From: Chitinophagaceae bacterium
Lineage (GTDB): Bacteria > Bacteroidota > Bacteroidia > Chitinophagales > Chitinophagaceae
Length of the DNA: 58,464 nt
Reading direction: 5' to 3'
Assembly (NCBI GenBank): GCA_003168265.1
Contig: PMSV01000022.1
Coordinates: 1 to 58,464 of the forward strand
In this document: positions 16,603 to 38,626 of the stretch, one piece after another
Position numbering within the stretch: position 1 is the first letter of the stretch
Layout of the letters: every line of letters begins with the position of its first letter
Translations under genes and position numbers: made by a program
Notes under the pieces: model-generated
Seen by the model: only the letters and a program-made list of their open reading frames with translations
Told to the model about the DNA's origin: nothing
The model's database searches: none

Positions 16603-17385
16603 ATGTCATACCAGACATTAATTACCGAATTATCAGAGCATATTTTCACGATTACGATCAACCGTCCGGAAAAGCTCAATGCACTCAACCGCCAGGTCAT
16701 TGACGAATTATCTGCAGCCATCGAAGAAATCTATAACAATCCCGAAATCGGTGCCGCCATCATCACCGGCAGCGGTCCCAAATCCTTTGTGGCTGGGGCC
16801 GATATCAATGAGTTCATCCATCTTGATTCAGTAGGAGGAAAGACCCTCTCAAAAAAAGGGCAGGACCTCGTCTTCAGCCGGATAGAGAATTCCCCCAAGC
16901 CCATCATTGCGGCCGTCAATGGTTTTGCCCTCGGCGGAGGATGCGAACTCGCCATGGCCTGTCATTTCCGGCTAGCCAGTGAAAATGCCAAATTCGGGCA
17001 GCCCGAAGTGAACCTGGGACTGGTTCCCGGTTATGGCGGGACTCAACGTCTTACCCAGCTCGTCGGAAAAGGAAAATCGATGGAACTTAATTTGACCGGC
17101 AACCTCATCGATGGGGCCGAAGCATTAAGACTAGGCCTCGTCAACCATGTCACCTCCCTGGAGCAACTTCTCCCTGAAACAAAAAAGATCCTTCAAGCCA
17201 TACTCTCCAAAGCCCCTCTCGCAGTAGCCGAAGCGATTGCCCTGGTCAATCACGCAGCTTATGGGAAGCCCGGAGGCCTGGAATTGGAAATCGAATCCTT
17301 CGGCCGGCTCTCAGGCACTGCCGATGCCAAGGAGGGAGCGAGCGCCTTTCTCGAAAAACGAAAGGCGAATTTCAAGGGGAATTAA
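16603..17385 (+). CDS. Enoyl-CoA hydratase/isomerase (crotonase) family protein
   Basis: The protein has 260 residues, the standard crotonase length, with ATG 16603 giving the N-terminus MSYQTLITELSEHI. Signatures: the oxyanion-hole segments FVAGADINEF and NGFALGGGCELAMAC, the catalytic glutamates expected in GGGCELA and in PEVNLGLVPGYGGTQRL, and the ALRLGLVN helix. These enzymes hydrate trans-2-enoyl-CoA in fatty-acid or amino-acid degradation. It overlaps by four bases with the convergent cytochrome gene. It could be a short-chain enoyl-CoA hydratase or a related isomerase; the specificity cannot be read from sequence. Confidence 0.92.
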   Translation: MSYQTLITELSEHIFTITINRPEKLNALNRQVIDELSAAIEEIYNNPEIGAAIITGSGPKSFVAGADINEFIHLDSVGGKTLSKKGQDLVFSRIENSPKPIIAAVNGFALGGGCELAMACHFRLASENAKFGQPEVNLGLVPGYGGTQRLTQLVGKGKSMELNLTGNLIDGAEALRLGLVNHVTSLEQLLPETKKILQAILSKAPLAVAEAIALVNHAAYGKPGGLELEIESFGRLSGTADAKEGASAFLEKRKANFKGN

Positions 17386-18779
17386 TTTTTCTGGACAGGT
17401 GCTTTTACAATCGTAGTATCCTGCTGCAGAAGCGGGACCACATAACCTCCCGTGTCCACCGAACAATTCGGAAATAATTTTTTGATTTCTGAAAAATGAA
17501 CTCCGGTATGAAAAATATAGAGTGTCTTCAGCCTTTTCAGGTCTTTCAGTGACTCCAATCCCTTATCTGTGATCTTGGTATCAAAAAGGTTAAGCCATCT
17601 GAGTCCGTTAAGCCCTTTCAAATGAGCAAGCTGCTGATCATCGACTGGGCAATGACTGATATCGAGCCCCTTGAGCGAATCCAGTTGACCTAAAACCTTC
17701 ATATCTCCATCGTCCAAAGGAAACTGGGAAAGCTTAAGCCAAACGATTTGTTTCTTGACGCGCAGGAGCAGGGCAATCGTCTCGTCATTTTTCCTGGCAG
17801 TTATATAGTTCGCGGAAAGCCAATGACTGCCTTGAGCAACCGGCAATACCACCACAGCAGAATCCTTCAATTGTGTAAGCGCTCTCTCATCTGCCGCATC
17901 CACATCGCCCATCGGCAGGTCCAGTTCTTGCTTTTTTTCTGCTGAAGGCCCCTGTAAAGCGAGAAGATCTTCCTTCACGGCATCCGGTTGGTTAATCGAT
18001 TTGACCTGTTTGGAAAAGGGCGCGCCCTGCCCGATCCACCATTTCAAAAGCCCAATTTCTGCTTCGCTAAGTTGAACCTTTTCTTCTGGGGCCATATGGT
18101 GCGAATCCTCCTTAGGAAGGAGGATTCGCTTGATTAGCAGACTCTGTTCAGGCCTGCCGGGAATAATAAGTTCTGCATCCTTTCCTCCCCTCACGATTCC
18201 CACAGAATCATCCAGCCGCAATTTTCCTTTTTGTTTTGAAGGACCATGACAAGAGACGCATTTCTCTTGGAAGATGGGCCGTATCACATCGTCAAAAACC
18301 TCAGCCGCTTGAATATCTGCGATAGGTTTTCGATGAAAATTATTACTCGAATCTCCGGTAAATATTTGTTTTAGCGGTCCGCTGAGGTAATCCGAACCAT
18401 GGGTCAGTGACCCACCCAGATGCCCCGTGACAAAAAGCTGGAATACCAGCAACCACGCAAGCGACAATTGCCATCTCCGAAATCTTTTGGTCTTATGCAA
18501 ATAATAAAGCAGCATGGAAATTAAAGCCACGCCGATTCCCATACATTGGTGGAAATTTACAGGCCCCTCGTCATAATCACCCGATTGCGCAAGCACATAT
18601 CCCGTAATGCAGGATACCAGGGCGCTGATCATCCCTAAGAGAAGCATCAAATTGATCGCCGGACCAAGATGAGCATACCTGATCTTCCTGGACTGCCATA
18701 TGAAAATGCAGGCCAGCAAAAGAATGCCAATCGGCAGGTGAACAAGGACGGGATGAAGTCGGCCAATCAGTTGCAGCAT
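17382..18779 (-). CDS. Membrane c-type cytochrome with DUF2231-like membrane part and leucine-rich repeats
   Basis: The protein has 465 residues. The first 145 contain four hydrophobic helices with conserved histidines (GRLHPVLVHLPIG), resembling DUF2231. A planctomycete-type cytochrome c module follows, with CVSCHG as the heme-attachment motif, then GKLRLDD, IIPGRPEQSLL and GLLKWWIGQGAPF. The C-terminal 150 residues contain leucine-rich repeats (LKGLNGLRWLNLFDTKITDK and a related copy). The protein would be anchored in the inner membrane with the heme and repeats in the periplasm. It follows the six-gene operon on the same strand after a 190-base gap, so it may be read through or separately started. 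The redox partner is unknown. Confidence 0.85.
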   Translation of the reverse strand: MLQLIGRLHPVLVHLPIGILLLACIFIWQSRKIRYAHLGPAINLMLLLGMISALVSCITGYVLAQSGDYDEGPVNFHQCMGIGVALISMLLYYLHKTKRFRRWQLSLAWLLVFQLFVTGHLGGSLTHGSDYLSGPLKQIFTGDSSNNFHRKPIADIQAAEVFDDVIRPIFQEKCVSCHGPSKQKGKLRLDDSVGIVRGGKDAELIIPGRPEQSLLIKRILLPKEDSHHMAPEEKVQLSEAEIGLLKWWIGQGAPFSKQVKSINQPDAVKEDLLALQGPSAEKKQELDLPMGDVDAADERALTQLKDSAVVVLPVAQGSHWLSANYITARKNDETIALLLRVKKQIVWLKLSQFPLDDGDMKVLGQLDSLKGLDISHCPVDDQQLAHLKGLNGLRWLNLFDTKITDKGLESLKDLKRLKTLYIFHTGVHFSEIKKLFPNCSVDTGGYVVPLLQQDTTIVKAPVQKN

Positions 18780-18969: not shown

Positions 18970-19896
18970 TCATCCATACCTCTTCCGCAGCAGGTTCATC
19001 ATATGCACATTGATCGCCCATTGGTCGGACACTGGTTGAACCGTATAAGGCAGGGCCGGCATATAGTGCGGCGGCCCGAACTCCGTAAGCACCGTCAACA
19101 CCTCGCCCTTCGCCCGCTTCAATTCAACCACCCGGTCCCACCAGGCAAAATGCACTTTCACCGCTTCCTCCCATTCGGGAGCCCTTGGATCATTCACCTG
19201 CGGTCCTTCCTGGTGACCGATCCTTGCATGAACATGATCGGTGCGCTCCAGGGCCAGGTCCACCGTCTCCTGCTGATCCTGAAGCAAACTCTCAGATACA
19301 TTACACCAATGAGAAATATCCAGTGTGATCCGAAGGCCCTCAATTTTTTCAAAATACTGTCTTGCAACAGGCGCCGAATAAAGAATTCTCGAACGATGGG
19401 TCTCATGGCAGATCTTTATTCCGGTTTCCTTCGCAAGCTGCATCGTATAATCCATGAAACGCTGGTTATCTTCAAAAGCAAAAAAATCCTTACCGGAATG
19501 GCAATTAATATAAAGAGGTCGCTGACGTGAATTGGTAGCCGCAGCATGCACCATCTTGGTGAAGCTCGCAAAATTATCCTGGAACCGGGGCTCATGACCA
19601 GCACATAAAAAGCCCACTTGCAGCCCGTATTTTTTCAAAGCCGAAAAGACCTGGTCGGTGACCGAATCATCAAAATTCCACCAGATCTCGATCCCGTCAT
19701 AGCCATCCCTTTTTACCCTGCTGCAATACTCATCGATGGTTCCGCCAAATCCCCAATTGGTCGCCAGAATTTTTAAGGCAAATGATCCGTCCATATTTTT
19801 AGAAAATTTTTTGTTAAGTGAAAGATGTTCCAGTGTGCCCAAGGCCAGGGCCGTTGTAGCTCCAGCCGATGCCTGAATAAATTTTCTTCTTTCCAA
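18970..19896 (-). CDS. Exported sugar phosphate isomerase/epimerase-like TIM-barrel protein
   Basis: The protein has 308 residues. The N-terminus ERRKFIQASAGATTALALG is a twin-arginine-like export signal, so the enzyme probably works folded outside the cytoplasm. The rest is an AP-endonuclease-2-type xylose-isomerase-like TIM barrel: GYDGIEIWW, KICHETHRSR with a metal-ligand pair, ITLDISHWCNVSES, HVHARIGH and LTEFGPP. Such proteins isomerise or epimerise keto sugars using a divalent metal. It is the last gene of the tight six-gene operon, 12 bases after the glycosidase gene, which fits a role in processing the released sugars. The exact substrate is not known. Confidence 0.85.
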   Translation of the reverse strand: MERRKFIQASAGATTALALGTLEHLSLNKKFSKNMDGSFALKILATNWGFGGTIDEYCSRVKRDGYDGIEIWWNFDDSVTDQVFSALKKYGLQVGFLCAGHEPRFQDNFASFTKMVHAAATNSRQRPLYINCHSGKDFFAFEDNQRFMDYTMQLAKETGIKICHETHRSRILYSAPVARQYFEKIEGLRITLDISHWCNVSESLLQDQQETVDLALERTDHVHARIGHQEGPQVNDPRAPEWEEAVKVHFAWWDRVVELKRAKGEVLTVLTEFGPPHYMPALPYTVQPVSDQWAINVHMMNLLRKRYG

Positions 19897-19908
19897 ATCC
19901 GGTTAATT

Positions 19909-21543
19909 TTACCCCCAATTAAATTTCATTTCCTTTCCATCCAGCTTCCAGTCCGCTGGAAGCGCATTACTCAGCCAGTCCAGCGGTTCTCCAACCGGCT
20001 GCACCCTGGAAGCCAGCGCAAAACCTCGTCTTATTGCTTTTTTCTGATCCTCCTCAACAAAAGAAGGATCGGCGGAAATAAAAAGCGGCGCGCCGCTATA
20101 GGCTACTAGCTCTAACCATTGCAAATTTTTATCCCAGGGCACTCTAGGAGTAATTCCCACGCAGTCTCCATCCGCATCATAAAACTTACCCTGTTGAACC
20201 AAACGGAACCCAAGCGTATTGACACCCATCTTCCTTGTGCGTTCCCATTCCAGACCGCTGGTATCATCCCCGATGCGGTTGATCTCAAAGAAGCCCGCTG
20301 CAAGGTGACTCATCGTATTACAGCCAAGCAGGACGGCATCGCCGGATCCTTCACGGATCAACCCATATAGATCCATGATGATCTCCGCATTGGTTTTTGA
20401 CTGATCGGCAAAATGCCAGTTCGGTTCGGTCAGGTCATCCATCATCTGAAAACCCCAGCGGCCCAGCAGATCAAAGGTTGAATAATCATGCTTGATCAGT
20501 TGATAGCCCCATTGACGATAAGAGATCAGCAGGTTTCTGATCCGCACCTGATTCTCATAAATGGTTGGATCCATGAAAGCCTTTTTAGGATCATTGCGAT
20601 TTGCGATGGCTGGTAACAAAAGGCTCTTGTCTGTCCCTTCATCCGCGCAAAGCAGGCGGGTCCATAATCCGGGACGCATGCCGAGTTCCTTGATCTGAGA
20701 GGCGAGTTTGGACATATCTCCGAATTTCGTATTAGAAAGGGCGCAGACCTCTCCGTCAGCCCAACCCGCATCTATAACCGAAAACGGTTTATTTGAAGTA
20801 TTGGTGACCAGGGGTGCCACCAGTTCCGTATGTTGCAGGATCAGTTCGGCAGAATTATCACCATAGGCAAAATACCAGTCATTGATCCCATAGACAGGCT
20901 GAGGAGCCTTCCGGGGATTGTCGCACATCATACCGCAGAATCGACGAACCGTTGCAAACGCATTTTCATGGGAAGAATTTTTCGCAAGCACAATGGTAGC
21001 AGCATGAAGTAAACGGTCTCCAAGAGAAACCGCATCCCCACCCGATCTTGTGTCAAGGACCAGGCTGATCGATTCCCCATCTGCCTCCCAATGACAAATA
21101 GTGGCCGCCCCTGTCTTCACACCGAAACAGAATGTATTATCCCCCTCACTTTCGATCATATACCATGGCATCTTCACCCTTTCCGAAACAGGCCTCCAGT
21201 GCACATCTCCATAAGTGCGCTCATAATGATCCCCAAGAACAAGTGCAGTAGAAGGGATGGGATATTTCCACATGCAACGGATTTTCTTCAAAGGAATTTT
21301 CGGCGATTGAATATAAATGTACGAATGCACCTTCTTCATTTTCAGTTCCAGATTAGTGTCTTCGTATCTCCAATTCTGTTTATCAGAACTCTTCATTTCG
21401 AACCATCCATCCATAGTTTCGATCGAAACCTGGTCGGGCGCAACCAGGATATGCCGGCTCTGCCCTTCAGAAAAGACATCGTTATGGATTAAAAAACTGC
21501 CAATTGAAAAACCTGTCAAACGTAAAAAATGACTTCTCTGCAA
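19909..21543 (-). CDS. Glycoside hydrolase of clan GH-D (alpha-galactosidase-like)
   Basis: The protein has 544 residues. The N-terminus (MQRSHFLRLTGFSIGSFL) resembles a Tat-type leader but lacks the second arginine. A beta-sandwich-like first 200 residues precede a TIM barrel with SVIDAGWADG, GMRPGLWTRL, LIKHDYSTFD (D353 as likely nucleophile) and INRIGDDTSG (D426 or D427 as likely acid/base). This layout is that of GH36/GH27-type alpha-galactosidases or alpha-N-acetylgalactosaminidases, which retain configuration. It sits between the DUF1501 gene (15 bases upstream) and the epimerase gene (12 bases downstream). The precise sugar is inferred; a neighbouring GH31-like assignment seems less likely. 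Confidence 0.8.
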   Translation of the reverse strand: MQRSHFLRLTGFSIGSFLIHNDVFSEGQSRHILVAPDQVSIETMDGWFEMKSSDKQNWRYEDTNLELKMKKVHSYIYIQSPKIPLKKIRCMWKYPIPSTALVLGDHYERTYGDVHWRPVSERVKMPWYMIESEGDNTFCFGVKTGAATICHWEADGESISLVLDTRSGGDAVSLGDRLLHAATIVLAKNSSHENAFATVRRFCGMMCDNPRKAPQPVYGINDWYFAYGDNSAELILQHTELVAPLVTNTSNKPFSVIDAGWADGEVCALSNTKFGDMSKLASQIKELGMRPGLWTRLLCADEGTDKSLLLPAIANRNDPKKAFMDPTIYENQVRIRNLLISYRQWGYQLIKHDYSTFDLLGRWGFQMMDDLTEPNWHFADQSKTNAEIIMDLYGLIREGSGDAVLLGCNTMSHLAAGFFEINRIGDDTSGLEWERTRKMGVNTLGFRLVQQGKFYDADGDCVGITPRVPWDKNLQWLELVAYSGAPLFISADPSFVEEDQKKAIRRGFALASRVQPVGEPLDWLSNALPADWKLDGKEMKFNWG

Positions 21544-21558
21544 AAAACTTTATTTTAA

Positions 21559-23067
21559 TTATGAAATAATTTCATTGATCACGGAACCACTAAGATCGGT
21601 GAGTCGGTATGCCCTGCCTTGAAAATTATAGGTCAGTCGTTTATGATCGAGCCCGAGTTGGTTGAGAATGGTCGCCTGGATATCAAAGGGATTCACCTTA
21701 CCGCTGATGGCGCTATAGCCGATATCATCTGTCAGTCCATGACTAAACCCTTTCTTGATCCCACCACCAGCCATCCAGATCGTAAAAGCCTCCGTATGAT
21801 GATCCCTTCCCTTAAAGGGATTCTGTTTCCCTTCCCGGTTTTCCATCATCGGGGTGCGGCCAAACTCGCCGCCCCAGATCACGAGTGTTTCATCCAACAG
21901 TCCTCTTTGTTTGAGATCCAGTATCAGTGCCGTCACCGGCTTATCCACCTGCCTGCATTTATTGATAAGCCCAATATCAATGGCAAGGCTGGCCTCAGTT
22001 CCATGGCTGTCCCAGCCCCAGTCAAAAATCTGCACAAAGCGCACACCTTTTTCGACCAGTTTGCGCGCGAGCAATATATTATTGGCAAGGCTGGCCTTTC
22101 CGGGCTCGGTCCCATACATCTCGTGAATGTATTTAGGCTCGTCATTTATATTCATCACTTCCGGAACGGAGATCTGCATCCGGTAAGCCATCTCGTATTG
22201 GGAGATCCTCGATAATATTTCGGGGTCTTGAAATTCCTTGTATTCCTCCTGGTTCACTGCATTGATCGCATCGATAGAAGCTTTACGTAAGGAACGATCC
22301 ATGCCCTGCGGGTCTTTAAGAAACAGAACCGGGTCTCCTTCACTTCGACACTGCACGCCCTGGTACACACTCGGCAGGAATCCACTGCCCCAAACACTCT
22401 TTCCGGCATCCGGAAATTTTCCCCCGCTCGTCAGCACCACGAATCCAGGCAGGTTCTGGTTCTCCGAACCGAGGCCATAAGTCACCCAGGCCCCCATGCT
22501 CGGCCTGCCCAATCGGGGGCTGCCGGTCTGAACCAGCAATTGCGCAGGTGCATGATTGAACTGGTCTGTTGTGCAGGCCTTCAAAAAACTGATCTCATCC
22601 ACGATCCCCGAAAGATGGGGCATATTCTCAGAAACCCAGGCTCCGGATTCACCGTGCCGGCTGAATTTTGCCTGTGGTCCAAGCATCGTAGGCACACCCC
22701 GAATAAACGCAAATCTTTTTCCCTCAAGCAAGGAAGGCGGGCATAGCTGGCCGTCAAGCTTCATCAGTTCGGGCTTATAATCAAAAAGCTCCAGTTGAGA
22801 AGGAGCTCCTGCCATATGGAGATAGATCACGGACTTGGCCCGGCCGGGGAACATGGGCATCCTTGGAGCAAGTGGGTGAGCGGGATCCAGAGCAATGCTT
22901 CCTCCCGTCGCATTCTGCTTTCCAAAGCAGCCTCCTAAGAGCGAGCCCAGTGCCAGGGCCCCGAAACCCATCGCGCTCTCCTTCAGAAAATGCCTTCTCG
23001 TGAGAAAATGCATGGATCGTTCCTGCGCTTCTCTGAAAAGTCGTGCATTATTTAAGTCTTTCTTCAT
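21559..23067 (-). CDS. DUF1501 (sulfatase-like fold) exported protein
   Basis: The protein has 502 residues. An N-terminal extension leads into TRRHFLKESAMGFGALALG, a twin-arginine signal, followed by SLLGGC, which could also be a lipoprotein site. The body has SVIYLHMAGAPSQLELFDYK, HGESGAWVSENMPHL, VIWGGEFGRTPM and KGRDHHTEAFTIWMAGGGIK, the classic DUF1501 order; the fold is related to alkaline phosphatase/sulfatase, but no activity is established. In many Planctomycetes and some Bacteroidota this gene always sits next to a DUF1549/DUF1553 cytochrome, as here: the partner stops 4 bases before this start. The function is unknown. Confidence 0.92.
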   Translation of the reverse strand: MKKDLNNARLFREAQERSMHFLTRRHFLKESAMGFGALALGSLLGGCFGKQNATGGSIALDPAHPLAPRMPMFPGRAKSVIYLHMAGAPSQLELFDYKPELMKLDGQLCPPSLLEGKRFAFIRGVPTMLGPQAKFSRHGESGAWVSENMPHLSGIVDEISFLKACTTDQFNHAPAQLLVQTGSPRLGRPSMGAWVTYGLGSENQNLPGFVVLTSGGKFPDAGKSVWGSGFLPSVYQGVQCRSEGDPVLFLKDPQGMDRSLRKASIDAINAVNQEEYKEFQDPEILSRISQYEMAYRMQISVPEVMNINDEPKYIHEMYGTEPGKASLANNILLARKLVEKGVRFVQIFDWGWDSHGTEASLAIDIGLINKCRQVDKPVTALILDLKQRGLLDETLVIWGGEFGRTPMMENREGKQNPFKGRDHHTEAFTIWMAGGGIKKGFSHGLTDDIGYSAISGKVNPFDIQATILNQLGLDHKRLTYNFQGRAYRLTDLSGSVINEIIS

Positions 23068-23071
23068 TCAC

Positions 23072-25843
23072 CTAATTCTTTGTTATTAATTCATCCAGGT
23101 TGAACAAAGCATTCGCCACGAGAACCAGGGCTGCTGTTGCAGGCCGGCCATCTCCATCCTTCTCCCCGATCATTTCAAAGCTTCTCACCCTATCATTGTT
23201 CATCTTCTCATAAGCCAATTCATAAAGACTGGTCAATGCATTCAATTTCTCTTTGCTGATCGGTTTATATAGAGCGATCTCATAACCCCTGGCAATTTCT
23301 TTTTTCACATCAGTTCCTCCCTCCTTCTGCATCCTGAACGCAAAATGTCTCGCCAGATCCAGATAGGCCGAATCATTTAGTGTCACCAGTGCTTGCAGGG
23401 GTGTATTTGTTCTGATCCGCCTGGCCGTACAAACCTCTCTCGAAGCTGCATCGAAGGTAAGCATCGAAGGATATCCGGAACTCCTTTTCCAGTAAGTGTA
23501 GATGGCCCTTCTATATGCACTGTCCCCACTGCTGGCGACCCATTGCGCATTATTCCAGGGAGAAAGCCAGATCCCCTTCGGCTGGTAGGGAAATATGCTC
23601 GGTCCCCCGACCTTTCCGTTTAAAAGGCCGCTGATGCAAAGAGCCTGATCCCGGACCTGTTCGGCAGAAAGACGAACCCTGGGCCCCCTCTCCAGCCATT
23701 TATTCTGAGGATCCCTTTGCATCATTTCCGCACTCAGTCTCGAATCCTGCCGGTAGCTTGCCGATAACATGATCCCCTTTAGTAATTTTTTCAGGCTCCA
23801 GTGATCTTCCGTCATGAAGCGGTAAGAAAGCCAGTCCAATAATTCAGGATGAGAAGGAGGAATGCCCTGGGTCCCCAGGTCTTCAAGTGTCTCAGCCAGG
23901 CCGGTTCCGAATAACTGTTCCCATATCCTGTTGACGATAGTCCGTGAAGTCAAAGGATTCTTAGGATCGACCATCCAGAGTGCAAGTCCCATCCTGTTAT
24001 GGGGAGTATTCGCAACTAGTGGGTTGAGTGAATGCGGCACATCGGCCTCCACCAATTTCCCCTTCACGAGCCAATTCCCTCTTTCAAATACATGGCTCGC
24101 CCGATGCATATAGGCCGGATTGTCCATCATCACCGGAGTCGTCGGCACATTCGCAGTCAGCAATTTCCAGTAGAGCTGCTTCATTTTCTCATATCCTGCC
24201 AATCCCTTGCCGGGAAAAGATTCCGCGAAATAAAGCCAGTCGATCATGGCCCCGGTTTCGGTTGGCTTTTTCAGATTGGAATTCACATAACTGAAATAAA
24301 GAGAATGCGAACCTTCCATCGGTTGAATAGGAGTCCACGCAATCTCCCAGCCCTCCTTCCTGCTCGTATCTATTCTGATTCGCGCAAGCAGCGCTCCATC
24401 CGGCTTATCCGCATGAATCTCCCATATTCCTCCCATCTTATATCCGCTAAATCGGTAGATCAATTCCTTCCTTCCTGTCAGCTCAACATTTTTCAAACGG
24501 CAAATCGCATGGTTTCTGAAAGCAGCCCACTTGGTATCTGAGAGTTCGCTATTGGTAAAGTTGTCGCAATTCAGTGAATTATAAGCAGGCTGCCAGGTCT
24601 TTAGAAATAGCCGCATGGCCCCTGCCCTCCGGGCACCGGCGTTCTGGTTCACCCAATCACAAAGCCGTTTCAATTGGGTTTCCAAAGTATCCGGGTAGGA
24701 CCTCAGCAGCGGATAATCCGCATAAGAATCCTCATCGCGGGTATCGTTGAAAAATGCCAGGAACTTATAATACTCATCATGGGTAAAAGGATCATATGGA
24801 TGGCTATGACATTGCACACAGCCAAAAGTCGTACCCATCAGGGCCTCCCAGGTAGTATTCACCCTGTCCATCACTGCAGCCGTCCGGAACTCTTCGTTAT
24901 CCGTGCCGCCCTCATCATTGGTCATGGTATTGCGGTGAAAAGCCGTCGCGATATAATTCGCATCGCTGGGATTAGGCAATAGATCTCCTGCAAGCTGTTC
25001 AATGATAAAACTATCATAGGCCTCATCCTTGTTAAAGGCACCGATCAACCAGTCCCTGTAGCGCCAGATGCTCCGGCTATCATCACGCTCATATCCCTTT
25101 GTATCTGCATAACGGGCAAGGTCTAGCCACATCGAGGCCCAGCGTTCCCCATAGTGAGGAGAAGCCATCAGCGAATCCAGCAAATCGCTATAAGCCTTAT
25201 CTGAAGAATCATTTAAAAATCTTTCCGCCAACCCATCAGGAGCCGGCATTCCGATCAGGTCCAGGCTCGCCCTTCTCAACAGTTCCGCCTTCCCGGCCTC
25301 AGATGAATGAACCAGCCTCTGTTCCCGCAATTTCTGATCGATAAAATAATCGATATCGTTTCTCACCCAATCTAGTTTCTTTCCCGGAATCAATCCAAAA
25401 AAATGAGCTTGTGGAACCGGGACATCGACCGGCTCTAAGGTTTTATAAGCCCAATGCTCTCCCCAGACTGCCCCCTCCCTGATCCATCTCTTTAAGTTAT
25501 TGATCTCATCCTTACTTAAAGGCTCATGCCGATAAGGCATCCTGTCCTCGGGATCTCTCAGTGTCAGCCTCCGGATCATCTCACTATGATCAGGATCTCC
25601 CGGAATGATTGGAAACTTTCCCGATTCCCCTTTCACGATCGCCTCATCGCGGAACAAAAGGCTGAATCCCCCCTTCTTGCGGACTCCTCCATGGCAGAAG
25701 ATACATTTTTTATTTAAGATAGGTTTGACCTGCGCGTCAAAATCAATCGACCTCTCGTGATGAACAAACAGAAAGGATAAAATAGATGCAGCCACCAGTA
25801 ATCCGGTAATGATAAAATAATTTCTATAGCGAAGGAACTGCAT
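23072..25843 (-). CDS. PSD1-type protein: planctomycete cytochrome c, DUF1549 and DUF1553
   Basis: The protein has 923 residues. A single N-terminal membrane anchor (YFIITGLLVAASILSFLF) is followed by a cytochrome c module with CIFCHGG (residues about 47-53) and a RMPYRHEPLSKDE segment. DUF1549 comes next, from about residue 160, with RRASLDLIGMPAP, then MASPHYGERWASMWLDLARY and a second heme-like motif, CVQCHSHPYDPF. DUF1553 fills the last 300 residues (HNRMGLALWMVDPKNPLTSR, EDLGTQGIPPSHPELLDWL, TNTPLQALVTLNDSAYLDLA). The protein is membrane-anchored with both CxxCH sites outside. It forms a pair with DUF1501. The biochemical role is not established; links to polysaccharide degradation are inferred from context. 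Confidence 0.92.
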   Translation of the reverse strand: MQFLRYRNYFIITGLLVAASILSFLFVHHERSIDFDAQVKPILNKKCIFCHGGVRKKGGFSLLFRDEAIVKGESGKFPIIPGDPDHSEMIRRLTLRDPEDRMPYRHEPLSKDEINNLKRWIREGAVWGEHWAYKTLEPVDVPVPQAHFFGLIPGKKLDWVRNDIDYFIDQKLREQRLVHSSEAGKAELLRRASLDLIGMPAPDGLAERFLNDSSDKAYSDLLDSLMASPHYGERWASMWLDLARYADTKGYERDDSRSIWRYRDWLIGAFNKDEAYDSFIIEQLAGDLLPNPSDANYIATAFHRNTMTNDEGGTDNEEFRTAAVMDRVNTTWEALMGTTFGCVQCHSHPYDPFTHDEYYKFLAFFNDTRDEDSYADYPLLRSYPDTLETQLKRLCDWVNQNAGARRAGAMRLFLKTWQPAYNSLNCDNFTNSELSDTKWAAFRNHAICRLKNVELTGRKELIYRFSGYKMGGIWEIHADKPDGALLARIRIDTSRKEGWEIAWTPIQPMEGSHSLYFSYVNSNLKKPTETGAMIDWLYFAESFPGKGLAGYEKMKQLYWKLLTANVPTTPVMMDNPAYMHRASHVFERGNWLVKGKLVEADVPHSLNPLVANTPHNRMGLALWMVDPKNPLTSRTIVNRIWEQLFGTGLAETLEDLGTQGIPPSHPELLDWLSYRFMTEDHWSLKKLLKGIMLSASYRQDSRLSAEMMQRDPQNKWLERGPRVRLSAEQVRDQALCISGLLNGKVGGPSIFPYQPKGIWLSPWNNAQWVASSGDSAYRRAIYTYWKRSSGYPSMLTFDAASREVCTARRIRTNTPLQALVTLNDSAYLDLARHFAFRMQKEGGTDVKKEIARGYEIALYKPISKEKLNALTSLYELAYEKMNNDRVRSFEMIGEKDGDGRPATAALVLVANALFNLDELITKN

Positions 25844-25885
25844 GGCAACCGTATTTCAGCAAATCAAAATTACCGATAATTTTGA

Positions 25886-27232
25886 TCAATCTTTCTCGAC
25901 CAGTCCTTCCGCTATATGGTAAGCATTTATCTCGCTTATCAAAGTCAGCGCTTTCTGTTCCTCGATGGAAAGAACGATAAAGCGCACTCCCCGTACTGCG
26001 TCAAAACTCAATATTCTTTCACGTCCGATCGTTGTCCCCAGGATTTCATTTATCGTCTCTTGCTTTTCATTTTGGAGCCTGATACTAAAACGCTTGCAAT
26101 GCTGGCCCTTGTCCAAAATCTCTTTAATCATGATACAATTTACTGTCTGATCGCTCGTCAATTCAAGTCTGAACGACTGTGTAATTATTAACCCCTTCGC
26201 CTCAAGGGCCTTACCCAGATTCTCCTCTCTGAGTCTCTTAAATCCCATCAGCGCCGCAGAATCCTCCCCATGTATCAATCCTCGCTGGTCCGGGGGCACA
26301 TTCAAAAGTAGCGCGGAGCCCCTGCCCACCGATCTCAAATAAAGCTGAAACAACTCTGCCGGGCTCTTCACCTTTCCATCCTCCTGCTCATGGTAGAACC
26401 AGCCGGGCCTGATACTCACATCACATTCTGCGGGGATCCAGTTGTGCCCGTTCTCGTTTCCACGGTTAAGGGTATCCGTAGGCGGAGCCCCGGCGCCTCT
26501 AAAAAATCCCGCCGTATCCAGTAAATTCCAATTCGTCTTCCCGGCAATACCCCTTTCATTGCCCACCCAGCGGATATCCGGTCCGATATCGCTGAAGACG
26601 ACCGTACCCGGCCCGATGCGCCTCATGGTCTTTTCAAAGAGACTAAAATCATAGACCTGCTTTTTGCCATTCGGCCCTTCCCCGTTGGCCCCGTCCCACC
26701 AGAACTCAAAAAATGGCCCATACCGGGCTACGATCTCCTCCATCATTTCAACATAGACCTGGTTGTATGCTTCTGTCCCATATGCCTGATGATTCCGGTC
26801 CCAGGGAGAAAGATAGACGCCCATCCTCAATCCATATTCCCGGCAGGCATCCCTCAGTTCTGCAAGCACATCGCCCTTCCCACCCTTCCACTTACTCTGG
26901 GCAACCGTATGGGTGGAATATTTACTAGGCCATAAACAAAATCCATCGTGATGTTTGGCAGTAATGATAATGCCGCTCGCTCCTGCCGCTTTCGCGATCC
27001 GGCACCATTGCCGGCAATCCAATTCCGTCGGATTAAAAACTTCTTCCTGCTCCGTACCTTTTCCCCATTCCAGATCGGTAAAAGTATTGGGCCCAAAATG
27101 CATAAAAAGATAAAACTCCATCTTGCTCCACTCCTTTTGCCGCTCACTTGGGGTAGGTTCGATAGTCTGATGTCCATAGGCAGTAAATGCAAATAGGAAA
27201 ATCAACCAGCTCGCCGGTACTAGTAATCTCAT
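25886..27232 (-). CDS. Exported alpha-L-fucosidase (GH29)
   Basis: The protein has 448 residues and a signal peptide ending near TAYGHQ. Catalytic-domain motifs: FYLFMHFGPNTF, AKHHDGFCLWPSKYS (H94, H95), MGVYLSPWDRN and FEFWWDGANG, whose D180 aligns with the GH29 nucleophile. The protein is short for the family, with a small C-terminal beta part that keeps SFRLELTSDQTVNCI-like strands; the general look is of GH29 subfamily B, which prefers alpha-1,3/1,4-linked fucose, but that is inferred. It lies 22 bases after the phospholipase C gene and 42 bases before the PSD1 gene in the operon. Confidence 0.92.
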   Translation of the reverse strand: MRLLVPASWLIFLFAFTAYGHQTIEPTPSERQKEWSKMEFYLFMHFGPNTFTDLEWGKGTEQEEVFNPTELDCRQWCRIAKAAGASGIIITAKHHDGFCLWPSKYSTHTVAQSKWKGGKGDVLAELRDACREYGLRMGVYLSPWDRNHQAYGTEAYNQVYVEMMEEIVARYGPFFEFWWDGANGEGPNGKKQVYDFSLFEKTMRRIGPGTVVFSDIGPDIRWVGNERGIAGKTNWNLLDTAGFFRGAGAPPTDTLNRGNENGHNWIPAECDVSIRPGWFYHEQEDGKVKSPAELFQLYLRSVGRGSALLLNVPPDQRGLIHGEDSAALMGFKRLREENLGKALEAKGLIITQSFRLELTSDQTVNCIMIKEILDKGQHCKRFSIRLQNEKQETINEILGTTIGRERILSFDAVRGVRFIVLSIEEQKALTLISEINAYHIAEGLVEKD

Positions 27233-27254
27233 GTGACCTAAGAATTAATTGAAC

Positions 27255-29720
27255 TTATACCTCGCCTCCCATAAATGGGTCACTGATCGAAGGCTTACCT
27301 GATTCTACATGCCCGGCATATCTCCACTCAAATCTATCATTTCCCTTCATAAAAAAGCTGAAATCATACCATCCTTTACTCGACTGAATGTCCAGGTTCA
27401 CTTTAGTAACCCCCGGGTCAATATCTTTATTTATGGGTCCAAAACTCTTGTAAGCATTGTCAACGATCCTGGCAGCAATCGGAGTTTTTTGATTATGGCT
27501 GAATTCCAAAACGATTCCAGACTCCGGATAACTCAAACGAATCCCAATCCCCGCATCGGCAGCCGACCCTCTGAAAGCTCGCATAAAACCATTGGGTCCG
27601 TGAATCTCAATATCATAATCTCCATGCTCAAATTCCTTCAAATCAATCCGGTCATTGATCCGGTCTCCGGCCTTCACCGCATAACTCTTAAGTTTCATTT
27701 CCCTTCCATAACTATATACAGAAAACGGAGATCCGGCAGACCGGCCTTTGAATAGCTGGTTCCCCGCATGCAGACTAAATTGAAAAAATGCCCGGTCCGG
27801 ACTCAGCGTCCCATCAACATAGAGTTCATAGGGAATGGCGCAGGCAAGCCTGGTGCCCTTTTCCTGGGAAGGCAACAGGGTGCTGGAACCAGGATCGCCG
27901 TTGATCTGCCCTATCTCCTCACGACTGAGGTTCCTATAATTGATCGGCGGACTCTTGAATTTTGCCTTATAGATCCCTTCGATAAATTCATTTTTCACAA
28001 CAAAAGGCAGATCCTCCTTCTTGTCAAGCGGTTCCGCTTGAAAAACCGAAGTCAGGTCACCGCAAACAGCGCGGCGAAACTGACTCACCAAAGGAGCTTT
28101 GATTTCCCGGCCCGTTTTCTTGCTCAGGAAGACCTCCAAAAACTGCAATGTGGAAGTATGGTCAAAGACCTGGGAGTTCACCCAACCGCCGCGGGTCCAG
28201 GGAGAAGCAACGATCAGGGGCACCCGGTAACCCAGTCCGATGGAACCCGGAGAATCCTGGGCAAGTTTGACATGCTCAACACCCGTATCGATGCCGGCAG
28301 AAACCGCACCCGTCTCCGGCCTGCCGGCTTCAGGAGCAACGAAAGGCGGCTGATGATCAAAATAGCCATCGTTCTCGTCATAGGCCAGGATAAAAATCGT
28401 CTTCTTCCAGATCTCAGGGTTCTTTGTAAGAATATCCATTGCTTCAGAAAGATACCAGGAGCCAAACCATGGAGCGCTCGGATGATCCGAAAAATATTCA
28501 GGAGCTACCAGCCAGGAAACTGTAGGGAGATTTCCGTCCTGCACATCCTGCCGGAATTGATGAAAAAGATCGCCCTTGGGTATATTGATTTCCTTTTCAT
28601 GATTGTCGTCCTGGTAAGTGACACTCTCCAGTTCATGCTGATGGGGGTCCCCGGTATTGGTTACAAAGGCTTTGCCGTGGACATTCTTCTGATGCTGCGT
28701 AAGATGTTCATAGTGTTCCTGGGTAAATGTTTTTTGTTCTTCGTAAGTATGTTCAAGTTCTTCCTTAGCATATTTCAATTTATTCTGCGCATCTTCTAAA
28801 TCCTTGCTGCCGGCAGGCAGAGTCTTCGTCTTTGCCTCCCATACCGCGATCTCTTTCTTTAGCTTTTCCACTTTAACCGGCAGGTAATCGATATAGGCCC
28901 TGGTCAGTTTGACATTATACTGCCTGAAATATTCCAGGGGATTATCCCCGAAATTTCCCAGCCATACATCCTGCTCGTCCGTGAATCCATGGTCCTGGCC
29001 GATCTCGTTTTGATAGACCTTCCAGCTCACTCCATTCTTTTCCAGGATCTCTGGGAAGGTCTCCCATTCCACTCCCCTTTCCACATCATCATTCTGGACA
29101 TAGGGCTTTGAATTGGAATGTTGCTCCTGCCTCACCGTCCCGCTCCAGAAATAAAGCCGGTTTGGGTCCGTCCCCGTCAGTGAAGAACAAAAATTCTGGT
29201 CGCAAACCGTAAACGCATCCGCCAAGGCATAATAAAATGGAATATCCTCCCTCGTATAAAAACCCATGGTCAAAGGCATCCGGCCATATTCATAATTATC
29301 GTCAGATTTTTTCGCCTCCAGCCAGTTATCGTATTTGCCATTATTGCGAGCTTCCATCTGGCTCCTCCTTCCATGCGGAAGCGAACCCATCCAGGTGATC
29401 TTCGTATTCTTAATATCCAGGCGGAAAGGACAATAAGTCTCCCCATCATGATTTGTCTGAAGCCAGACCTTATTCCGATTCGGCTGCCTGATCACCCTTG
29501 GATCACGGAAGCCCCTCACTCCCCTCAACGTCCCGAAAGTATGATCAAAGGAACGGTTCTCCTGCATCAGCAGTACGATATGTTCCGCATGCATAAAATC
29601 AGTACCCGGTTCCGGTGCGATCGTCAAAGCCCTTTGAATCGACTCAGGCAAAAACTGGCTGACTCCGAGAGCCCCCGAAAGCAAGACCGATTTCTTAATA
29701 AAACTCCTTCGTGTTTCCAT
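27255..29720 (-). CDS. Exported phosphocholine-specific phospholipase C
   Basis: The protein has 821 residues. It begins METRRSFIKKSVLLSGALG, a textbook twin-arginine leader. The catalytic phosphoesterase domain has EHIVLLMQENRSFDHTFGTL, SLTGTDPNRLYFWSG, WLVAPEYFSDHPS and AYDENDGYFDH. The last 200 residues hold the two DUF756 C-terminal domains found in this family (PYELYVDGTL and the later WYDFSFFMKGN copy). Family members release phosphocholine from phosphatidylcholine or sphingomyelin outside the cell. A run of about 60 residues near 290-350 is lysine/glutamate-rich and may be an extended helical insert. It is the first gene of the six-gene operon; the promoter was not identified. Confidence 0.92.
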   Translation of the reverse strand: METRRSFIKKSVLLSGALGVSQFLPESIQRALTIAPEPGTDFMHAEHIVLLMQENRSFDHTFGTLRGVRGFRDPRVIRQPNRNKVWLQTNHDGETYCPFRLDIKNTKITWMGSLPHGRRSQMEARNNGKYDNWLEAKKSDDNYEYGRMPLTMGFYTREDIPFYYALADAFTVCDQNFCSSLTGTDPNRLYFWSGTVRQEQHSNSKPYVQNDDVERGVEWETFPEILEKNGVSWKVYQNEIGQDHGFTDEQDVWLGNFGDNPLEYFRQYNVKLTRAYIDYLPVKVEKLKKEIAVWEAKTKTLPAGSKDLEDAQNKLKYAKEELEHTYEEQKTFTQEHYEHLTQHQKNVHGKAFVTNTGDPHQHELESVTYQDDNHEKEINIPKGDLFHQFRQDVQDGNLPTVSWLVAPEYFSDHPSAPWFGSWYLSEAMDILTKNPEIWKKTIFILAYDENDGYFDHQPPFVAPEAGRPETGAVSAGIDTGVEHVKLAQDSPGSIGLGYRVPLIVASPWTRGGWVNSQVFDHTSTLQFLEVFLSKKTGREIKAPLVSQFRRAVCGDLTSVFQAEPLDKKEDLPFVVKNEFIEGIYKAKFKSPPINYRNLSREEIGQINGDPGSSTLLPSQEKGTRLACAIPYELYVDGTLSPDRAFFQFSLHAGNQLFKGRSAGSPFSVYSYGREMKLKSYAVKAGDRINDRIDLKEFEHGDYDIEIHGPNGFMRAFRGSAADAGIGIRLSYPESGIVLEFSHNQKTPIAARIVDNAYKSFGPINKDIDPGVTKVNLDIQSSKGWYDFSFFMKGNDRFEWRYAGHVESGKPSISDPFMGGEV

Positions 29721-29891: not shown

Positions 29892-30170
29892 ATAGTATCA
29901 TTTGGAAATTCAGAAACAGAAAAAGTATGGAATGGAACAAGAGTCAAAAAATTACCTGATGAAATTCAAAATATCGGATGAAGGAAATTAAGAATGCTAA
30001 ATAACTCTATTGACTTGGCTGATTTAAGAATTCCTCCTTCCAATAGACTTGAAAAGTTATTTGGAAATCTTAAAAATTTTTATAGTGTGCGAATAAATGA
30101 TCAATGGAGAATTATTTTCAAATGGAATTCAGGTAACGCTTTCGAAGTTAAAATAATTGACTATCATTAA
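29892..30170 (+). pseudogene. higB: Broken HigB-type (RelE/ParE) toxin gene
   Basis: The frame 29892-30170 reads, in order, VSFGNSETEKVWNG, a TGA stop (29979-29981), RKLRMLNNSIDL, a PPSNRLEKLFGNL stretch, YSVRINDQWRIIFKW and VKIIDYH. Its 93 codons match the usual HigB length. Two defects are visible: the expected start position is ATA rather than ATG, with no other in-frame start after the upstream TAG at 29877, and the TGA sits where relatives usually have arginine (CGA), so one C-to-T change explains it. The C-terminal piece from ATG 29994 could still be translated but lacks the N-terminal half. The antitoxin gene is intact. The start defect is less certain than the stop. Confidence 0.85.
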
Positions 30171-30180
30171 TTTTATTAAT

Positions 30181-30480
30181 ATGACAAGACTCAAAAATAT
30201 TCACCCTGGCGAAGTCCTCGTTGAGGAATTTCTTAATCCTTTGAATATAATAGCATACAAACTTGCAAAAGCTATCGAAATTCCACAGACCAGGGTTTCC
30301 GAAATAGTTAAAGGCAATAGAAGAATTACAGCCGATACTGCCGTCAGGCTAAGTAAGTACTTTGGCAATAGCGCCAAATTCTGGCTTGGACTGCAGGACG
30401 ATTTTGACATAGAAGAAGAAATGATTATCAAAAGTGCAATTCTTAAGACTATAAAACCTATCAGTACAAAAGTTGCATAA
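30181..30480 (+). CDS. higA: HigA-type antitoxin, XRE-family helix-turn-helix
   Basis: The protein has 99 residues. ATG 30181 is chosen because it gives the family N-terminus MTRLKNIHPGEVLVEEF; a TTG eight codons upstream is unlikely. The helix-turn-helix reads AYKLAKAIEIPQTRVSEIVKG, followed by RRITADTAVRLSKYFGNSAKFWLGLQ, the diagnostic HigA tail. It binds the toxin and represses its own promoter in studied systems. It starts 11 bases after the broken toxin gene and looks complete, so it may persist as a regulator or as a protective antitoxin against related toxins. Confidence 0.9.
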   Translation: MTRLKNIHPGEVLVEEFLNPLNIIAYKLAKAIEIPQTRVSEIVKGNRRITADTAVRLSKYFGNSAKFWLGLQDDFDIEEEMIIKSAILKTIKPISTKVA

Positions 30481-30640: not shown

Positions 30641-31015
30641 ATGCAAACCGTTTCCCCAAACATTTACGTAAGCGATATCAAAAAAACGATAGAATTTTAC
30701 GAAACCATTGGATTCATTAAGGTAACCATGGTAGGAGATGAAGAAGACCCGGTCTTTGCCCTCATGAAATGTGGCGATCTAAGCTTTATGTTTCAAACCT
30801 TCAAAAGCATCCAAGACGAGTTGCCGGCTATCAGCCGGACAAATGGTGGCTCCTTGCTACTCTACATAAACATGAAAGGCATCCGGGATTTTCATGAAAG
30901 GATAAAAGACAGCGTAACCATATTAAATGGTCTAAGCAAAACCTTCTATGGTGCCACTGAATTTTCAATCCTTGATTGCAATAACTTCATGCTAACTTTT
31001 GCTGAAGATGAATGA
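30641..31015 (+). CDS. VOC (glyoxalase/bleomycin-resistance) fold protein
   Basis: About 124 residues; ATG 30641 gives the N-terminus MQTVSPNIYVSDIKKTIEFYE, where YVSDIxKTIEFYE is the classic first strand-helix of a VOC module. A second beta-alpha-beta unit ends in FSILDCNNFMLTFAE. VOC proteins bind metals or small molecules and include dioxygenases, antibiotic-binding proteins and isomerases. The usual metal-binding residues are not obvious, so a binding role is as likely as catalysis. The stop overlaps the start of the next gene by eight bases, so the two are translated together. Confidence 0.8.
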   Translation: MQTVSPNIYVSDIKKTIEFYETIGFIKVTMVGDEEDPVFALMKCGDLSFMFQTFKSIQDELPAISRTNGGSLLLYINMKGIRDFHERIKDSVTILNGLSKTFYGATEFSILDCNNFMLTFAEDE

Positions 31016-31841
31016 CCCACTAAATAAACTCTCTCCAACCCAGGCAGAAAAAAGAATCCTGCGTTCCAAAAGAATCAGGTTCAGAGAACTCTATCTGTAT
31101 ACTATAGCAGAAATACGGTCCTTGCAAAATACCTCCAGAATCCGCGCCATGGAGTTATATGCATTATCAGAATTTCAAAGCCTTCCATCGATAGGAATAA
31201 AATTTGCCCATGATCTTATTTCTCTTGGCTTCTATTCACTCGACGAACTAAAAAAGAAGAAACCTGAAAAGCTAATCCATCAACTCGAAAAACAGATCGG
31301 TGCCTGGGCCGACCCCTGTCTCGAAGACCAATTTCGTCTGGTGATCCATTACGCCAATCACAGAAAAAGCAAAAAAAATTGGTGGGATTTCACGGGTGAG
31401 CGAAAAGCATACAGGCTAAAGCACGGCTACCCCTCCGATCGTCCCTCAAAGCCCTGGTATGAACTGGAGCAATACAAAATGCCAAATCAAATCAATGCAA
31501 AGTCGAATCTCACCAAAGAAGATATTTCAAAAAAACTGCGTGCCGCAATGAGCCATATCAAAAAAAATTATTCGGAGCCGCTAACTCTGCGATCATTATC
31601 CAGGATCGCCTGCCTTTCCCCCTTTCATTTACAACGCTCTTTCAAAGCAGCCTATGAAAAAAGCCCGCTTCAATATATCACACAACTTAGGTTGAAAAAA
31701 GCTTGCAGGCTTCTCAAACAAACTAAGCAACCGGTAAATGAAATCGTGATAAAGTGCGGATTTGAAAACTCAAGTTCCTTTATCCGTTTATTCAAAAACC
31801 AATACGACCAGACACCGCTTGAATATCGAATTACTTCGTGA
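31008..31841 (+). CDS. Fusion of a Cdd1-like helix-hairpin-helix domain with an AraC-type DNA-binding domain
   Basis: About 277 residues. Residues of about 50-150 contain FQSLPSIGIKFAHDLISLGFYSLDELKKK, then QIGAWADPCLEDQFRLVIHYANH and KKNWWDFTGERKAYR, the pattern of the small Cdd1 ('pathogenicity locus') helix-hairpin-helix proteins of Bacteroidota and Firmicutes. The last 100 residues are an AraC/XylS helix-turn-helix pair (LTLRSLSRIACLSPFHLQRSF and VNEIVIKCGFENSSSFIRLF). I have not met this combination and could not search for it. Its start lies inside the VOC gene end. A regulator that senses something through the Cdd1 part is inferred. It overlaps the convergent hydrolase gene by 11 bases. 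Confidence 0.8.
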   Translation: MNDPLNKLSPTQAEKRILRSKRIRFRELYLYTIAEIRSLQNTSRIRAMELYALSEFQSLPSIGIKFAHDLISLGFYSLDELKKKKPEKLIHQLEKQIGAWADPCLEDQFRLVIHYANHRKSKKNWWDFTGERKAYRLKHGYPSDRPSKPWYELEQYKMPNQINAKSNLTKEDISKKLRAAMSHIKKNYSEPLTLRSLSRIACLSPFHLQRSFKAAYEKSPLQYITQLRLKKACRLLKQTKQPVNEIVIKCGFENSSSFIRLFKNQYDQTPLEYRITS

Positions 31842-38301: not shown

Positions 38302-38626
38302 CTTTGTCAATTTAATAATCAGGCAAAGGAAGATCAATTGCCAAATCTCCATTTATAATATGCGGAAAAACAATTCCGGGATAAGGAAAACGAGAAGCTT
38401 AAAAGACGGCTACAATTCCAGGAATTTAATATTGCGTACGAATTGACGGCATGATTCCACATGCACCTGAACATCAGAGCCTTTGCAAACCAATATAAAA
38501 ATCTTTAAGGCACCCCCCTTTCCAAATTCCCATCTTTTTCGTAAATTTCTGCCCCACTGCAAATCTGCCATACATTGAGAATGCCAATCCTGTGAACCCA
38601 GGTTCATTCATTCTAAACTTCATAAA
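38302..38626. other. 325-base divergent intergenic region
   Basis: This region lies between the TonB receptor (minus) and the 181-residue outer-membrane protein (plus). It is AT-rich with no gene I can support. It should contain both promoters. I looked for a cobalamin-riboswitch-like element ahead of the receptor and did not see one. Confidence 0.45.

Follow-up and report, generated by a model that had tools for sequence, protein, structure and literature searches.

The window analysed here is a 58,464-nucleotide stretch of DNA (contig PMSV01000022.1 of assembly GCA_003168265.1, forward strand) from a Chitinophagaceae bacterium of the phylum Bacteroidota. Six open reading frames lie on its minus strand between positions 18970 and 29720, with intergenic gaps of 22, 42, 4, 15 and 12 bases, exactly as given in an earlier sequence-only reading that treated them as one degradation operon. 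Matches in Pfam and NCBIfam agree with that reading in identifying a phospholipase C, a GH29 fucosidase, a DUF1549/DUF1553-type cytochrome (hereafter the PSD1 protein), a DUF1501 protein and an epimerase-like protein (EPI). Although the six genes are real, the inventory missed a CBM6-like domain in the PSD1 protein and a seventh same-strand gene, located 190 bp downstream of the six-gene run, in which Pfam detects DUF2231, PSCyt1 and leucine-rich repeat (LRR) domains. This seventh gene (17382-18779) belongs to the same set as the neighbouring core genes. The unit that recurs in other genomes is not the six-gene run but a four-gene exported redox core, comprising the PSD1 cytochrome, DUF1501, the EPI TIM barrel and the DUF2231-PSCyt1-LRR protein, to which the phospholipase C, the GH29 fucosidase and a clan GH-D glycosidase are add-ons (Table 1).

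A search of the window's 4.3-Mb genome yielded the PSD1 protein as its sole PSCyt2 match. The PSD1 gene is separated from the adjoining DUF1501 gene by 4 bp, and the genome carries cytochrome c assembly genes and TatC of the twin-arginine translocation (Tat) pathway. Two TTG start codons (19896 and 21543) are consistent with the N-termini of aligned homologues. The cluster may be co-transcribed as an operon.

Table 1. Genes and motifs of the core and its add-ons, in window coordinates.
Feature	Coordinates	Strand	Basis
Core gene 4: DUF2231 membrane domain, PSCyt1 haem c, leucine-rich repeats	17382..18779	-	Pfam; alignment of 13
Haem c CxxCH of DUF2231 protein	18246-18260	-	Within core gene 4
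Core gene 3 (EPI): xylose-isomerase-like TIM barrel, twin-arginine start, probably exported	18970..19896	-	PF01261 (AP_endonuc_2)
EPI H164-E165-T166-H167 motif	19396-19407	-	Alignments of 14 and 16 sequences
Add-on: clan GH-D (GH36/GH27-like) glycosidase, 544 aa, probably exported	19909..21543	-	Profile versus alpha-galactosidases
Core gene 2: DUF1501, Tat signal, lipobox-like Cys (putative lipoprotein)	21559..23067	-	PF07394, 485 bits; TIGR01409
Core gene 1: dihaem cytochrome PSCyt1-PSCyt2-[CBM6-like]-PSD1, putative N-terminal membrane anchor	23072..25843	-	PF07635/PF07583/PF07587
CBM6-like beta-sandwich in PSD1 protein, about residues 426-540	24224..24568	-	PDB profile match and Foldseek
Haem c motif CVQCH of PSCyt2	24806..24820	-	Sequence; CxxCH invariant in 22
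Haem c motif CIFCH of PSCyt1	25691..25705	-	Sequence; CxxCH invariant in 22
Add-on: GH29 alpha-L-fucosidase, putative signal peptide	25886..27232	-	PF01120; PDB matches
Add-on, first gene of cluster: phosphocholine-type phospholipase C, twin-arginine start	27255..29720	-	TIGR03396

A recurrent four-gene core

Searching 148 relatives with the PSD1 protein gave matches at E ≤ 0.001 in 66 of them (many of these matches being paralogues), and a search of named genome contigs yielded 36 loci. Neighbouring genes were read in stretches from 40 relatives (G000 denotes the window's genome) and at the 36 named loci, five of which are the same DNA as relatives' loci, leaving 31 further named loci. A core was scored as complete if DUF1501, EPI and DUF2231 genes were present on the PSD1 strand within 7 kb, and at least 4 kb of downstream sequence was required.

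The recurring gene order is PSD1-DUF1501-EPI-DUF2231. Complete cores were observed at 26 of the 34 relatives' loci with sufficient room, the remainder lacking EPI (seven) or any partner (one). Among the 31 named loci with sufficient room, 15 are complete (five loci are shared between the two sets), 13 retain DUF1501 as the only partner and three have none. Six relatives' loci and five named loci were too short for this count, one of them complete. PSD1 matches at E ≤ 1e-180 were present in 18 of 296 evenly drawn Bacteroidota genomes, the window's included. Twelve Bacteroidota stretches, taken from 11 of those genomes, carry the full core (five), a core without EPI (two), DUF1501 only (four) or no partner (one). 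In several members of the window's genus, the core stays at one chromosomal site while the add-ons vary. The EPI gene is separate from PSD1-DUF1501-DUF2231 in two genomes (L171 in G028 and L172 in G014); in G028 it still adjoins the enoyl-CoA hydratase and transporter genes that mark the site usual in this genus.

The sequence-only reading had made conservation of its gene order the check on the proposed six-gene system. The exact set fails this check because no other locus read, whether among the 40 relatives or elsewhere, contains it, although a looser version occurs in the nearest kin. The six genes were therefore rejected as a natural unit.

Both CxxCH motifs are invariant in the 22 PSD1 proteins aligned (of 39 rows). 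A PSD1 profile matches the CBM6 structure 1w9s in the PDB (E 3.5e-6), and the predicted model (predicted local distance difference test score, pLDDT, of 75) contains a CBM6-like beta-sandwich for which Foldseek gives CBM6 matches at E 4e-5 to 9e-4 and a target template-modelling (TM) score of up to 0.79 with 2v4v. The remainder of the chain in this model has no convincing match to a solved fold. In the DUF2231 alignment (12 of 17 rows plus L151), residues H9, H14, H77, H120, H127, C174, C177 and H178 are invariant in 13 of 13 sequences. These five histidines in the N-terminal membrane part, together with one CxxCH, fit a membrane cytochrome that probably carries b haem as well as c haem.

Two alignments were prepared for EPI, one of 14 sequences (12 of 17 rows plus L150 and L151) and one of 16 from the wider family (seven core sequences and nine of 14 paralogue sequences). 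Residues H164, E165, H167, D193, H221/H223 and E272 are invariant in both, whereas T166 is invariant only in the former. From this pattern, H164-H167, D193, H221/H223 and E272 are likely metal-binding or catalytic residues. The paralogues (L156-L170) are cytoplasmic-looking TIM barrels, most of which carry an HETHRGR motif, and their genes adjoin those for PhyH dioxygenases, GH78-like or GH127 enzymes, a transporter or glycosyltransferases.

We suspect that DUF1501 has an alkaline-phosphatase-superfamily fold. A profile from 20 of 32 aligned rows gives weak matches to this superfamily (E 0.19-0.8), and all 50 Foldseek matches listed for the predicted model belong to it, none at E ≤ 0.001; the model itself has low confidence (pLDDT 45.6) and is too poor to rely on.

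Fucosidases and other enzymes near the core

The window's GH29 protein most resembles F5/8-type and alpha-1,3/4 enzymes, matching PDB entry 4zrx at E 1e-111, with 5k9h close, and, among named enzymes, the alpha-1,3/4-fucosidase 3ues at E 1e-98. Fucosidase genes in the fetched surroundings of the core (15-20 kb) were compared with expectations from whole-genome counts and rounded genome sizes for 30 of the 40 relatives' loci, with probabilities that assume independent genomes. Seven of 30 relatives have GH29 near the core, with 11 genes in all (0.75 loci expected, P 6e-6); one of the seven, G008, has a weaker match on the opposite strand. GH95 is present in four (0.39 expected, P 6e-4), and either family in eight, representing seven genera (1.13 expected, P 9e-6). 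Outside the window's genus, the count is 6 of 17 against 0.6 expected (P 1e-5). The other 22 relatives have no fucosidase in the stretch.

The same queries found no fucosidase at the 31 further named core loci, versus 1.3 expected when the relatives' mean gene density is applied to these genomes. Pooling both sets gives 8 of 61 core loci against 2.4 expected (P 0.003), and addition of the 12 phylum stretches gives 9 of 73 against 2.9 (P 0.003). The link thus characterises some members of the window's family. The earlier claim that the cytochrome and DUF1501 act with the fucosidase thus gains from the excess among relatives and from the CBM6-like domain, but does not extend to the named loci.

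The closest homologue of the window's GH29 resides at the core in 6 of 30 other genomes (G010, G053, G059, G069, G082 and G086) and elsewhere in the genome in the other 24, including G066, which has no match. It precedes the core in G000 and G010, and follows it in the other five, each from another genus. Separately, G013 and G021 have a GH95 gene after DUF2231, on contigs distinct from those bearing PSD1, and in G267 a GH95 gene lies between PSD1 and DUF1501.

As a single sequence, the window's GH-D protein gives no Pfam match and found nothing else meaningful. However, a profile of 23 homologues (from 30 hits, with the window row replacing L068, after exclusion of six remote hits and a truncated one) matches the GH36/GH27 alpha-galactosidases 6lcj (E 5e-5), AgaSK (E 3e-4) and 1zy9 (E 3e-3), and the clan GH-D label of the sequence-only reading holds for this reason. 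Residues D353 and D426/D427 are invariant in the 23 sequences and are candidate catalytic acids, which may be equivalent to the catalytic positions of solved clan enzymes. The gene is found inside the core in G000, G025 and G010, and at no other of the 40 relatives' loci. The window protein begins with MQRSHF where most aligned relatives show a twin-arginine RR, and its Tat export may be altered.

The phospholipase C matches TIGR03396 with 757 bits (cut-off 580). Matches occur in 50 of 148 relatives, but of the loci read only those of G000, G010, G025 and G013 have one close to the core. On one strand, G010 has the order PLC-GH29-DUF1800-DUF1501-like-CHU_C-PSD1-DUF1501-GHD-EPI-DUF2231-GH95 (PLC, phospholipase C; GHD, the GH-D gene), in which the window order is kept with three extra genes inserted; these three were named by similarity to scanned G025 proteins. 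The order in G025 is GH29-PLC-GH31-DUF1800-DUF1501-like-CHU_C-(172 aa)-PSD1-DUF1501-GHD-EPI-DUF2231. In G013, GH29 and phospholipase genes are upstream of the core, with a reverse-strand gene separating the latter from PSD1. None of the 40 relatives' loci has the phospholipase, GH29 and GH-D genes placed as in the window. The triplet upstream of PSD1 in G025 (DUF1800; a DUF1501-like protein with a type IX secretion system (T9SS) tail; CHU_C) has homologues in G010 and G027, and its position means that two DUF1501-type systems neighbour each other (L098, L101 and L100).

Twenty stretches in which a phospholipase homologue lies apart from the core were also read. GH29 occurs only in G027 (L198) and G026 (L199), where it directly follows the phospholipase gene and no core gene is present in the stretch. 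All five of the nearest phospholipase homologues (G010, G025, G026, G027 and G013) have GH29 within about 2.3 kb, adjoining in four, whereas 18 other phospholipase stretches have none. These stretches indicate that the phospholipase and GH29 genes are linked in a small clade independently of the core, and part of the window's arrangement may be such a pair set beside it. The proposal that the phospholipase is a partner is therefore sustained only as far as its pairing with GH29; as a core part it finds no support beyond close kin.

SusCD polysaccharide utilisation loci of Bacteroidota are clusters of exported glycosidases. The window cluster resembles them in this respect, but has haem proteins at its centre and no SusC/SusD pair, as had been remarked before. 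No SusD was detected among 30 window proteins scanned; TonB receptors are encoded at 35806-38352 and 46791-49052. This absence is not a property of the system, because SusC-SusD genes precede the core elsewhere. In G007 and G014 the core is preceded by SusC-SusD-SusE-GH76-GH76 (an order joined through clusters from domains scanned in either genome), and in Spirosoma validum (L063) PSD1 is preceded by SusC-SusD-(FG-GAP/UnbV). A SASA carbohydrate-esterase-type gene precedes PSD1 in L049, and the same cluster occurs at eight named loci. Other neighbours include GH30 and PF10091 glycoamylases (G066), GH109 (G028) and a sulfatase (G423), and in G082 PSD1 and DUF1501 are separated by genes for a GFO/IDH/MocA oxidoreductase and a 3-keto-disaccharide hydrolase. 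Some core loci have neighbours of a non-sugar kind, such as a tRNA synthetase or amidohydrolase gene.

Possible functions of the core

Literature searches found no paper on the four-gene core, nor on the DUF1501+DUF1553(+DUF1549) pairing. The nearest printed description found concerns a PSCyt/PSD gene set in freshwater Verrucomicrobia, to which the authors assign unknown function while noting carbohydrate-binding modules and sulfatase neighbours (PMC5615132). The core resembles these Planctomycetota/Verrucomicrobiota sets in combining PSCyt and PSD domains in one protein, in having a conserved unknown family beside PSCyt2 genes, in the carbohydrate-binding modules of some proteins, and in its sulfatase and glycoside hydrolase neighbours (PMC5615132). 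It differs in its Bacteroidota host and in being present as one genome copy, compared with 41 of each PSCyt/PSD1 domain given for Rhodopirellula baltica in PMC2754498. Further differences are its four-gene composition, which includes a DUF2231 membrane cytochrome as well as a TIM barrel, and the fucosidase linkage in one family.

We tentatively favour the possibility that the core is a periplasmic sugar-oxidising module fed by glycosidases. Part of the same explanation, and equally tentative, is that the core in the window has acquired glycan-cutting GH29 and clan GH-D enzymes together with a phospholipase C. Acting at the surface or in the periplasm, the glycosidases would trim a fucosylated glycan. 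Together with DUF1501, the CBM6-bearing dihaem cytochrome would bind the trimmed sugar and share in oxidising it. Its c-haems would hand the electrons to the membrane cytochrome, from which they would reach the quinone pool or respiratory chain. Isomerisation of the oxidised (keto) sugar, or its cleavage by beta-elimination, would then fall to the metal-dependent TIM barrel (E-x-H, D, H, E). Sugar oxidation, the direction of electron flow, the elimination chemistry and the role of DUF1501 are all inferred here. The strictest form, respiratory glycan oxidation in which the dihaem cytochrome itself oxidises sugars, the DUF2231 b/c-type cytochrome passes on the electrons and the TIM barrel performs the elimination, seems to us decidedly improbable. 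If true, this strictest form would mean that glycans are broken down by redox chemistry that dispenses with the known flavin or NAD 3-keto enzymes, and would provide a function for the long-unexplained PSCyt/DUF1501 families. The single-copy, compact and recurrent Bacteroidota version, with its CBM6-like domain and, in one family, its tie to fucosidases, makes the PSCyt/PSD1 question approachable in a small genetic system with a concrete class of substrates.

This sugar-oxidation reading is suggested by the recurrence of the core, the fucosidase excess in relatives, the CBM6-like domain and the sugar-gene neighbours. The five invariant histidines and CxxCH of the DUF2231 protein, and the Tat and cytochrome c assembly genes of the genome, point in the same direction. 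In addition, the TIM-barrel E-x-H/D/H/E pattern resembles that of 3-keto-glycoside beta-eliminases. According to PMC10628242, AtOGE and the CGEs have metal ligands on strands 5-8, with Glu first in CGEs and the catalytic His two residues later, and EPI appears to share this ligand pattern. The pathway described there places oxidation before bond cleavage (PMC10628242), which is the order proposed for the core. Unlike that pathway, the core has no recognised flavin oxidase or NAD oxidoreductase, and its TIM barrel carries an export signal.

Several findings weigh against the sugar-oxidation reading, the weakest points being the lack of an oxidising cofactor and the large number of fucosidase-free core loci, counted above among relatives and named loci alike. 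Neither the core nor the seven genes as a whole include a recognised flavin, pyrroloquinoline quinone (PQQ) or NAD enzyme, and the sugar-oxidising cofactor is thus missing. EPI has no significant sequence match to known eliminases, and the attempt to identify it as one by sequence failed; its motif also occurs in the cytoplasmic-looking paralogues found in other settings. The loss of EPI from some relatives' loci and the reduction of many named loci to PSD1 and DUF1501 count in the same sense. PF06439 (3-keto-disaccharide hydrolase) is not enriched near the core (1 versus 1.4 expected), and a general 3-keto link through this family was discarded, leaving the single locus in G082. Promoter scans of the locus gave no more than shuffled sequences. 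Finally, GH29 pairs with the phospholipase away from core genes in G026 and G027, and in the window's genus GH29 may go with the phospholipase rather than with the core.

A somewhat unlikely alternative is that the core is a general-purpose exported module for electron transfer or stress, with glycosidases recruited through starvation or surface-growth expression and no direct sugar chemistry by the cytochromes. PMC2754498 suggests a Rhodopirellula extracytoplasmic function (ECF) factor, which is up under all three stresses, as regulator of a PSD1/PSCyt2 gene. The fucosidase-free named loci and the constant core site with changing add-ons in several members of the genus also fit such a module. 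However, it leaves aside the CBM6-like domain inside the cytochrome, the fucosidase linkage across seven genera of the relatives' set and the carbohydrate genes that adjoin cores of other groups.

We consider it unlikely that the locus is an ordinary hydrolytic one, in which GH29 and the GH-D enzyme do the work on a fucosylated glycan and the cytochrome core is unrelated read-through. The short gaps in the window and the frequency of fucosidase-free cores (22 of 30 relatives and 31 of 31 further named loci) are consistent with this explanation, but fucosidases flank the core on either side in different genera, which is hard to square with read-through.

The earlier proposal, with phospholipase C as an integral part and a glycan or glycolipid bearing both fucose and phosphocholine as the substrate, is very doubtful: the GH29 genes near all five nearest phospholipase homologues and the one-strand order of phospholipase, GH29 and core in G000 and G010 speak for it, but 18 further phospholipase loci have no GH29 in the stretch, the pair in G026 and G027 has no core gene in the stretch, Pfam recognises no phosphocholine-handling gene in the cluster, and other core loci read have no phospholipase.

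Beyond the phospholipase gene, a divergent HigBA-like toxin-antitoxin pair is encoded on the plus strand at about 30049-30480; the protein from 30181-30480 matches HTH_3, and the HigB-like part was judged by eye. A gene at 30999-31841 on the same strand encodes a fusion of Cdd1 ('pathogenicity locus', PF11731) with an AraC-type DNA-binding domain.

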